Shown: piece by piece, positions 53,500-58,228 of the stretch | How positions within the stretch are numbered: position 1 is the first letter of the stretch | How the letters are laid out: each line of letters starts with the position of its first letter | Source of the DNA: Pseudovirgaria hyperparasitica | Lineage: Eukaryota > Ascomycota > Dothideomycetes > Acrospermales > Acrospermaceae | Reading direction: 5' to 3' | Assembly: GCF_010093815.1 (NCBI RefSeq) | Contig: NW_022985553.1 | Coordinates: 771,410-835,409 of the forward strand | DNA: 64,000 nt | The notes under the pieces: model-generated | Database searches by the model: none | What the model was told of the DNA's origin: nothing | Seen by the model: the letters and a program-made list of their open reading frames with translations, nothing else | Position numbers and translations under genes: made by a program

Positions 53500-55727
53500 A
53501 GTTACTCCTTATACTTATAAAGGTATAGATATATATCTAGCTACGAAGTCTCACGAACCGCGTCCACGTCGTTATAGCTAGGCAATGCCTCTTCGGAGGT
53601 AGTAAGAGGTTTAGAGCGGCGTTAATGGCGACCTCGTCGTCGCTAGGTAGGTGGTTATAGAGTTTTCGCGACGCGTTACTCTATAGGGACCACACCGTAA
53701 TAAACTAGCTAGGATAGTATATACTTCCATCCTATTCTTAATTAACGCGTTAAGAGGAGTCCACGAGGATACTAGGATAAGAAAACCATCTAATACGCTA
53801 CTACTATATCGAAAGCAGGCCTAAATCTACCTTACTATATAGGTAGAGAAAGCGGAAGTTCTAGTAGCGCGATAGGACACCTCGAGGCTTAAATAGCTCT
53901 AGGTATATAAGGATTAGCAAGAAATTACGTCGAGGGTAACTATAAACTACTACGGATGAACTTATTAAGGCTAACTCTCCTATAGTATTAAACTACGTTT
54001 ATTAAGACGCCTAGCGCGACCACTAGTAGCGTGACTCTATTAAGACCTTTCGCTCGATATAGGATACCGCTTAGGTCTAGAATAGATAGAGCGGCTTCCG
54101 CGTACGAGAGATATTATAGTCTACTATAGGAGGTAGGGCGCTAGTATATATAGATAATAGTATACGGATATAGGTAAGAGACGACTATAGAGACCTATTA
54201 AAAAGTAGTAGAAATAAGTCGGGTTAGTAGATAGAGGATACTTAAGTCGCCTAGGCGCGTCACGCGAGTATACACGTATAGGATTTAAAGGATACTCGTC
54301 TATAAGACACGGTCGGTCTATCGTAGAAAGATCCTTATAGGTAATATAAAACTAGATAGTAGCTATGCTTAAAGGCGGGGCGTGGTATATAGTAGTAACT
54401 ACTAGCTCTAAGGACCTTACCCCTTTAATAGGCTCTAACCTTTAGTATATCTAGAAGTAGGCGGGATCACGTTCTAGCCGGGGAGACTATTATATAGTCT
54501 AAGAGAACGGATACGTGTATCGATTTATAAAGAGATAGAATGTATTACTAGGCACGCACGCTAGTAACATGAGTTTAAGGAGTAAACCTTATAGTTTCCT
54601 AGCTAGATAAGGCGTTATGCCCCTCTTCTAGTAGAGCTAGAGGTATAAGCCTAAAGGGGATAAGATAAGGCGAAAACAGGAGTAGGGCCTAATGGTATAG
54701 GGCACGTCGAACCTGTAGGAGTCATCCGACTTCGAACTAGAGGTAAATAACAAGCATAGGAACGCATAGGAAACGTAGAATACACTTTCGCCGCGCTACG
54801 CGCACGAATTAGTATACATTACCGCGCACTTCTATACATAGGCTGGAATTAAATACGGTACAGGTGCTTAATAGAAGCCGACTCTAGCTAAGTAGTATAA
54901 GAAGTCCGAGATAACCCGGACACTCTCCTAGACCGGTAGAGCCTTTAAGAACTCGTAAAAAATATACGGTCGTAGACTTAAGATAAGTAGAAAGAGGTAC
55001 TCCGTGCCTACTAGACCTTCTAGTAGAATAGGTACCTAGAGTAGATTCGAGGGCTATAGAAGGAACCGAGTAAATAGATATATAAAGGGCTAACGAAAGC
55101 CTAAGTATCTATACTTATCTAAGCCCGAACGGGCGCCATAGGACTTCTATACTATATCTATAAGAGAGGCGTTCCCGATACCTCTCTATGGTATAAGGCG
55201 TATGGCCGGAGAGATATAATACGCTACTATCTAGCTATATACCCTAACCTCTATATATAACGGTAATAGCTTATCCACGTTACGAAGACTTTAGATATCG
55301 TATAATGGCTTAATAAGTACCCTAAGGACGTCTCCTAATAGATACTTATATATCTACTACTCCTCTAGTACTAGTAGACCTAGAAATATATACTAGAAGA
55401 GACCTAGTATACGCTAGTAGTAACCCGATATATACCGGAAGAACCCTAGGAGAACCCTAATTATTAGTCGGGGGCAGCCCTTAACTAATAACCTCCGCAT
55501 CTACACGTGCTACCTAAGGGTAAAATAACGGTAATATAGACTATAGGCTAATAGGCGTACCCTATAGCTATATACTTAAGACGAAATAGAGGTTTAACGA
55601 GATATAGTTATAGATATAAGGAAGTTTTTCCCTATAGGGTTTCTTCTTATATAGTGGCTTAGACTAGAGGAGGTATAGGCCTATAGAGTACTACTCTACC
55701 TAGTTATATAATATTATTATTATTATT
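53500..55727 (+). mobile_element. Degenerate Tad1-like non-LTR retrotransposon (LINE), 3' part
   Basis: The anchor is 55104-55250. With stops read through it gives ARTGAIGLLYYIYKRGVPD, then YKAYGRRDIIRYYLAIYPNL, matching the conserved C terminus of Tad1-type LINE polyproteins, where a CxxC..H..C zinc motif follows RTGxIG and a VPD-type motif. Here all four metal ligands are Tyr. The frame continues to a 3' end with an (ATT)n tail at 55705-55727. The left boundary is uncertain, and no reverse transcriptase motif was confidently read in 53500-55080. Confidence 0.55.
55705..55727 (+). repeat. (ATT)n tail of the LINE copy
   Basis: Seven ATT units follow CCTAGTTATATA, close to the arrangement at the end of the tRNA-headed unit at 58198. 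Confidence 0.85.
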
Positions 55728-55989
55728 ATTATAGATATATATCTAGTAGAATACTAAGTAGAATACCTACTATCTTCGCGGCTTTATAATAAGTAGTTCT
55801 AGGCCAAGTTATCTCCTTAATATAGTAGTAAGTATAGTAGTTATTATCTATATATAGTCTTAATTCGTATATCCTAGCCCTCGTCTTATTATAAGTCTCT
55901 ATCTTCTTACGCTATTTAAGAGCTAATAGTACTATATCCGCCTAGTAACGCCCTAGTTATACTAGACTACTAAAGGTTTCTATAACTCG

Positions 55990-57258: not shown

Positions 57259-57272
57259 TATATAAAGGGACG
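57259..57272 (+). repeat. Left target-site duplication of the tRNA-headed unit
   Basis: TATATAAAGGGACG here is repeated exactly at 58215-58228. Together the copies bracket a unit with a tRNA-like head and an ATT tail. Confidence 0.65.
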
Positions 57273-57361
57273 GCCAGGTGGCGTAGTGGTAGTATACTAC
57301 GTTACTAGAAGCGTTTGTCATCCAACGTCGTGGGTTCGAATCCTACAACGGCCACCTTTTT
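57272..57361 (+). tRNA. tRNA-like Pol III head (degenerate cloverleaf)
   Basis: An intact A box (TGGCGTAGTGG, 57279-57289) and a perfect B box (GGTTCGAATCC, 57333-57343) are present, and a T5 run follows at 57357. The T arm pairs fully (GTGGG/CCTAC), and the outer four acceptor pairs GGCC/GGCC form, but acceptor pairs 5-7 mismatch and no standard 7-nt anticodon loop can be drawn. The closest is GCGTT/AACGT around TGTCATCC. No isotype can be assigned. It is best read as a tRNA-derived head of a short retroelement or a tRNA pseudogene. Confidence 0.55.
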
Positions 57362-58197
57362 ATACACTAGTTTTCGCACGCTCTGTTAAAAAGTGTATAG
57401 GGCTAAGCGAGCACGTAACGTGAAGGTTACCGTTACATAACTACTTAGTCCTAAGCGACCATTAGGTAATATAAAAATGACTATACCGTTATCACATAAT
57501 AAGAATTACCTAATATAGCCACCTACTAAGCCACCTTAAGTGGTAGAGCGACGCCTAGAGCGGCTAGACCCATAACTAGCTTAGCTTAAATCATAGAATT
57601 TTCACCATATACCGGGGCCTTGTCCACCCTAATCCGGCTTAGCTTGCGCTTACTCCGGCTCGGTAACCACGAAATAGACGGTAATACCTAATTAAGTATC
57701 CCGCCTACCTATAGACGATTACATAGCCCCGAAGAATAATTTCCGAATTTGGCCTAGCTAGGGTTAGTGCTAAGGCATGGACCTATTAGATATACACCCC
57801 CTCCGGCATTAGTCATCTTAATTAATAACTACTATCTAGCGCAAAGCTATATTCCTATAGATAGGAAAAAAACACGGTAACATAGGAATAAAAGACTAGG
57901 CCTAGCCTAGCGACCTACCCAATCATAAGAAAGGTAATACCTACTATAGTTAGTTAGGGCGTTATTAAGAGCCGGTACTAATATAGTAATAAAAGCCTAA
58001 TATAAGGATAAGAAGTAAGTTTATCACCTAATGGGATTCGAGGACTTAGACTAGGCTAGGTTAGATTAGTAATAGGGTCTAGTTAGGGAGCTAATCATAG
58101 GAGGTTTTCTTATATACATAGTAGCTAATACTAGAGGAGGCCTGAGCCTATGGAGCATATATATGGCTATATATATAGTTCTTCCTAGTTAAACACT

Positions 58198-58214
58198 AAT
58201 ATTATTATTATTAT
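58198..58214 (+). repeat. (ATT)n tail of the SINE-like unit
   Basis: Five to six ATT triplets immediately before the right-hand target duplication. Confidence 0.85.
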
Positions 58215-58228
58215 TATATAAAGGGACG

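Follow-up and report, generated by a model that had tools for sequence, protein, structure and literature searches.

Fungal short interspersed nuclear elements (SINEs) of 472-900 bp are listed in PMC5063351, and stringent pairs of SINEs with long interspersed nuclear elements (LINEs), the Tad1 clade included, are described in PMC4176376. Mg-SINE of Magnaporthe, 472 bp long and present in ca. 100 copies (PMC5063351), is paired with the LINE MgL/MGR583, and SINE2-1_BG of Blumeria is paired with Tad1-24_BG (table in PMC3747384). Here we describe a SINE with a tRNA-related head in a stretch of 64,000 nucleotides from Pseudovirgaria hyperparasitica (assembly GCF_010093815.1, contig NW_022985553.1, positions 771,410 to 835,409 of the forward strand), referred to below as the window. 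The element very probably belongs to a family that was transcribed from an RNA polymerase III (Pol III) start, retroposed by the enzyme of a LINE and spread in a recent burst, its copies then being mutated separately at CpA sites by repeat-induced point mutation (RIP).

The known elements were likened to the window SINE by description. Mg-SINE is tRNA-derived, fungal and paired with a resident LINE, but is half as long. SINE2-1_BG is also a tRNA-derived fungal element with a named partner LINE, a Tad1; unlike the window SINE, it resides in a genome that possibly has no RIP (PMC6022598). AfuSINE2-1a of Aspergillus fumigatus shares with the window SINE a tRNA-related head, a trinucleotide tail, there (ACT)n, and a LINE-like 3′ end, which resembles that of a Tad-clade LINE (PMC5063351). 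The AfuSINE2 elements are shorter (140-493 bp), and looking for the word RIP in that article gave nothing. Powdery mildew also has long SINE-like retroposons, Eg-R1 at 700 bp and egh1/EGH24 at 900 bp (PMC6022598, PMC5063351). Eg-R1, from barley powdery mildew, a fungus possibly lacking RIP, is likely an RNA polymerase II (Pol II) element and was reported without A and B boxes (PMC6022598), whereas the window SINE has both. SINEs are mentioned in general terms in PMC4522978, PMC4112212 and PMC3441728, and PMC10691877 names MgSINE and excludes SINEs from its analysis. A preliminary description of the window had called SINEs uncommon in RIP-active ascomycetes. This does not agree with the repeated descriptions from filamentous ascomycetes, three of them of elements with a LINE-like 3′ end or a named partner LINE. 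The kind of element is thus already known; as far as our searches reach, the family appears to be a new example of it, as judged from published descriptions. To the few fungal SINEs on record it adds one whose 3′ end is LINE-like and whose copies probably spread in a recent burst, in a host where RIP is strong.

Structure of the element

Read from the sequence, the SINE occupies window positions 57272-58214 (943 bp) and sits between two exact copies of the 14-mer TATATAAAGGGACG. As the first G of the element is also the last G of the 14-mer, the target duplication is 13 or 14 bp long. The parts of the element, all on the + strand, are as follows.

57259-57272, +: left target-site duplication TATATAAAGGGACG (13-14 bp), an exact repeat of 58215-58228, its last G ambiguous with the first G of the element
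57272-57356, +: tRNA-related head, 85 nt long and containing both Pol III boxes (A and B), from sequence; the heads of two copies align to host tRNAs
57279-57289, +: A box TGGCGTAGTGG, from sequence and family census
57333-57343, +: B box GGTTCGAATCC, from sequence and family census
57357-57361, +: T5 run immediately 3′ of the head, from the family alignment and a census of 26 rows
57362-58101, +: body of ~0.74 kb, family-specific and non-coding; in the whole-unit genome search it matches only family copies
58102-58218, +: LINE-related 3′ region of ~117 bp, with ~70% identity to the contig C39 LINE at its 3′ end (blastn; alignment A1)
58130-58190, +: predicted RNA three-way junction, from folds of 13 tails, RNAalifold on alignment A1 and single folds
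58201-58214, +: (ATT)n terminal repeat, from sequence; the C39 LINE has the same tail
58215-58228, +: right target-site duplication TATATAAAGGGACG, an exact repeat of the left copy

The boxes at the start, the (ATT)n at the end and the flanking 14-mers had all been noted before and can be read directly. No ATG-initiated open reading frame of at least 40 amino acids lies inside the unit, the single one listed falling mostly outside it, and none was found to overlap the unit in copy L027.

A dispersed family with target duplications and empty sites

A search with the whole unit gave 34 matches in the genome from which the window comes, an assembly of 35.0 Mb in 59 contigs. We examined 33 rows together with their flanks, the 34th match being a second piece of locus L033. 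Sorting by hand left 31 loci: 21 head-to-tail copies including that in the window, two headless copies (L029, L030), one copy cut by an assembly gap (L035), five diverged older copies at 76-83% (L031-L034, L036) and two short tail pieces (L037, L038). Two rows were dropped from the family: L026a is an assembly duplicate whose left flank is the same as that of L026b across a run of N, and L039 is a LINE 3′ end. L037 and L038 were considered as LINEs with a SINE tail and rejected as such; they are SINE tail pieces of 57-62 bp abutting the end of another repeat.

Of the 33 rows, 23 have a target duplication of their own of at least 11 bp; L012 and L015 have similar ones, in flanks that differ. 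Because many copies sit in other repeats, we could join the two flanks of a copy and seek the joined sequence uninterrupted among the extracted loci and the window. A match had to extend at least 30 bp to either side of the joint and could contain gaps. An uninterrupted paralogous target site was found in this way for 13 of the 23 duplication-bearing copies. The best match was ~89% or more in 10/23, gap-free at 90% or above in 7/23, and only ~71% for three sites (L019, L021, L025). The empty site of the window copy occurs in five loci (L010, L019, L026, L029, L036). The 34 matches, the individual duplications and the uninterrupted sites show that the unit is not a chance arrangement; it is a member of a dispersed, non-coding SINE family of less than 1 kb. 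They also bear out the preliminary reading of a tRNA-headed retroelement in a RIP island, which had called for further copies and empty sites: some 30 more loci exist, where a lack of other copies would have spoken against it.

Of 24 duplications, 23 at SINE copies and one at a LINE copy, 22 start with TATA. Since the last letters of the tail are themselves TAT, the register was adjusted manually for this count, by at most 3 nt. TATA occupies 4.5% of flank positions, giving a binomial probability of ~1e-14 even when four registers are allowed. LINE and SINE thus enter the same TATA-type target.

Two further features of the distribution were observed. On contigs under 420 kb (C21, C23-C26, C30, C33) lie 21 of 29 SINE matches, the 29 being what remains of the 34 once four short matches on the tail side and a C23 row, taken for the assembly duplicate, are set aside; these small SINE-rich contigs may be heterochromatic fragments or accessory chromosomes. 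L016 and L020, ~107 kb apart on contig C4, have 1.7 kb of right flank in common at 94% and different left flanks, and L020 has no target duplication. They are also the one pair of copies with an excess of shared mutations. For these reasons L020 is probably a rearranged duplicate, arising by duplication or by ectopic recombination between SINE-bearing segments.

The tRNA-related head

As judged from sequence, internal A and B boxes for Pol III are present at the 5′ end, as a tRNA-derived SINE requires. The A-box pattern TGGCGTAGT[G/A]GTAG was found in 21 of the 26 head-bearing rows and the exact B box in 14, the remainder differing by C-to-T or G-to-A. Heads were compared with 50 tRNA-model matches from the genome, obtained by scoring 63 of 912 candidates and called tRNAs by ARAGORN in 49 cases. 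In local alignments the L011 head scored 21.0 against tRNA-Leu(CAG) (maximum of 200 shuffles 18.5) and the L009 head 18.0 against tRNA-Ala(TGC) (maximum of 200 shuffles 16.0). Together with the boxes, these scores suggest that the head is related to tRNA. A conserved, syntenic tRNA gene at this place, which the preliminary description had named as a possible refutation, was rejected: the head moves with the element across the family copies.

The same description had held that a strong terminator effect of the T5 run, if it prevented any full-length transcript, would argue against a Pol III SINE. The position 3′ of the head reads TTTTC in 10/26 head-bearing rows and TTTTT in 16/26. The TTTTC rows include L009, L011, L027 and L028, and L027, L028 and L009 have the fewest mutated CpA sites among head-to-tail copies. 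The best reading of T5 is hence a product of RIP (C-to-T at CpA), and the idea that it ended transcripts of the source element was rejected, so that this concern mostly dissolves. A run of four T is a poor terminator for fungal Pol III.

The head is carried by 22 of 24 young loci. The two young headless copies, L029 (C9:1319247-1320099) and L030 (C1:710848-711698), lie on different contigs, start 1-2 nt apart within the T run behind the head, and have an exact duplication each. From these two copies one could argue that the head is detachable, being removed from some transcripts by the tRNA 3′-processing enzyme and leaving a headless RNA that the LINE still mobilizes, but we regard this as unlikely.

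A LINE with a related 3′ end

The 3′ region of the SINE resembles that of a LINE on contig C39 (locus L044). Unit positions 845-960 match L044:3228-3324 (blastn, E 3e-9), with ~70% identity over 116 columns of alignment A1. The matching stretch of the LINE lies 0.97 kb behind its reverse transcriptase domain, and both tails end in the same repeat, (ATT)n. The domain is of the RVT_1 type, its nearest solved relatives being L1 and R2.

A search with the 572-aa frame of the C39 LINE, in which 76 out of 250 candidates were scored, gave 77 rows. Among these listed rows, 76 have at least 10 in-frame stops, almost all of them TAG or TAA, and the C39 copy alone is open. A LINE piece of 460 bp on contig C7 (C7:197806-198265) is identical throughout to the C39 copy (C39:15007-16722). 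Beside its (ATT)n tail it has a duplication of its own, TATAATCTTGTT; this identity and duplication indicate that the LINE machinery was recently active. As the C39 and C7 copies are identical and free of RIP stops, there probably is, or recently was, an active LINE source. Of 14 PF14529 endonuclease matches, six are followed ~0.4 kb further downstream, in the same orientation, by a frame bearing reverse transcriptase, and these six pairs are LINE copies 63-69% identical to the C39 protein.

A common fold was predicted for the LINE and SINE tails, with an outer stem ACUAG/CUAGU, an AGGC/GCCU hairpin and a second hairpin that differs greatly in sequence and length between the two. Pair probabilities of the outer stem were 0.71-1.0 across the 13 folded tails. 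The shared 3′ end, tail repeat and predicted fold, together with the TATA-type target, point to LINE-driven retroposition.

RIP mutation of the copies

Among 24 young copies, with both strands counted, C-to-T changes affected 55% of CpA sites and 1.7-8.8% of other contexts; in the window copy, 110 CpA sites were inferred and 59 of them carry a mutation. The CpA observed/expected ratio is 0.47 in the unit, 0.16 in the left flank, 0.13 in the right flank and 1.14 in window positions 1-51000. The unit is thus richer in CpA/TpG than its surroundings, as had been noted, and at 0.47 is itself already strongly depleted, so that it has been subject to RIP. It had been proposed that the element either arrived after most of the RIP or escaped it. 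The first holds in that the SINE is younger than its flanks; it did not escape.

L009 and L030 lie in normal DNA, and in both the unit has undergone RIP and the flanks have not. Each copy has CpA mutations largely independent of those in the others. The copies seem to have been mostly free of mutations when seeded and to have been hit separately later, and the family thereby records the action of RIP on a 0.94-kb repeat: directed to CpA, nearly independent between copies and, at the two loci in normal DNA, not extending beyond the repeat. For the idea that RIP spares short elements, the family provides a natural test.

Proposed pathway and alternative explanations

We propose that Pol III would start at the internal A and B boxes, pass the short T runs and reach the end of the unit. 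The reverse transcriptase of a LINE would recognize the 3′ region through the shared junction fold and (ATT)n, and priming on a nicked target beginning TATA would yield duplications of ~11-16 bp. A recent burst would have come from one or a few source copies largely untouched by RIP, the inserted copies then being hit separately at CpA sites. The family, its duplications and empty sites, the 3′ end and target preference in common with the LINE and the near-independent RIP patterns are observed; transcription by Pol III, use of the enzyme of this LINE and a role for the RNA fold are inferred from them.

Several observations weigh against parts of this pathway. ARAGORN called no tRNA in the head, and the Rfam tRNA model did not match it at E up to 5 in five loci, where the sole Rfam match was to a microRNA model, below threshold and outside the unit; at gathering level Rfam matched nothing in the window. 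The L011 and L009 heads indicate different parent tRNAs, within a comparison limited to the scored candidates. Four T4 runs are present even in L009, L011, L027 and L028. Convincing duplications were absent from 10/33 rows (L020, L026a, L031, L033-L039), and the weakest empty sites belong here too. The C39 LINE copy seems to be 5′-truncated, with no long upstream frame and with homology to other copies starting near L044:998, and neither an endonuclease frame nor a target duplication was found for it. Tail stability relative to shuffles is ordinary (z of 0.39, 0.12 and -0.81 for SINE tails, -1.32 for the LINE); the outer stem is invariant, and RNAalifold on A1 found two-sided change in only 2/13 consensus pairs. 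With ~70% agreement at the 3′ end and a longer second hairpin in the SINE, the true partner may be another LINE lineage. Lastly, the spread of Z (variance 1.9) hints at a partly shared mutation history.

Alternatively, the unit could be a SINE-like retroposon copied from Pol II RNA, with the tRNA-like head a relic. In favour of this, 0.94 kb is a considerable length for an RNA made by Pol III, and T4 and T5 runs lie inside the unit; Eg-R1 offers a precedent, being reported as polyadenylated and lacking both boxes (PMC6022598). The boxes of the present family, however, are recognizable in most head-bearing rows, its tail is (ATT)n and not poly(A), and the retention of the head in nearly all young loci is expected if the head is needed, and we consider a Pol II origin improbable. 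It is less probable still that the unit is an internally deleted, non-autonomous LINE derivative that gained a tRNA. Its 3′ ~117 bp are indeed LINE-like, but the other ~0.74 kb match only family copies genome-wide, and in comparisons with the LINE loci examined and the window the tail side alone matches, apart from short, weak matches. A tRNA head joined to a LINE 3′ end is, moreover, the usual make-up of a SINE.

Exact direct repeats would also flank a tRNA gene that happened to lie beside a chance repeat, a DNA transposon or a solo long terminal repeat. Duplications that vary in length and sequence, the (ATT)n tail and the many dispersed copies do not fit these explanations, and by eye, no formal search having been made, the ends are not inverted repeats of each other. 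The family alignment and empty sites refute such readings, to which we attach practically no likelihood.

LINE remnants near the SINE

Remnants of the related LINE lie upstream of the SINE in the window.

54745-54919, +: related-LINE remnant, the end of a frame bearing reverse transcriptase, 88% identical to the C39 copy (blastn and tblastn)
55190-55737, +: LINE 3′ part with RIP mutations and an (ATT)n tail, 87% identical to the C39 copy (blastn; alignment), ~1.5 kb upstream of the SINE

The exact 17-mer TATAGATATATATCTAG occurs at window positions 53524-53540 and 55730-55746, the second copy directly 3′ of the LINE (ATT)n tail. Although ~1.2 kb between the copies is not LINE-like, the 17-mer is possibly the target duplication of the window LINE remnant.
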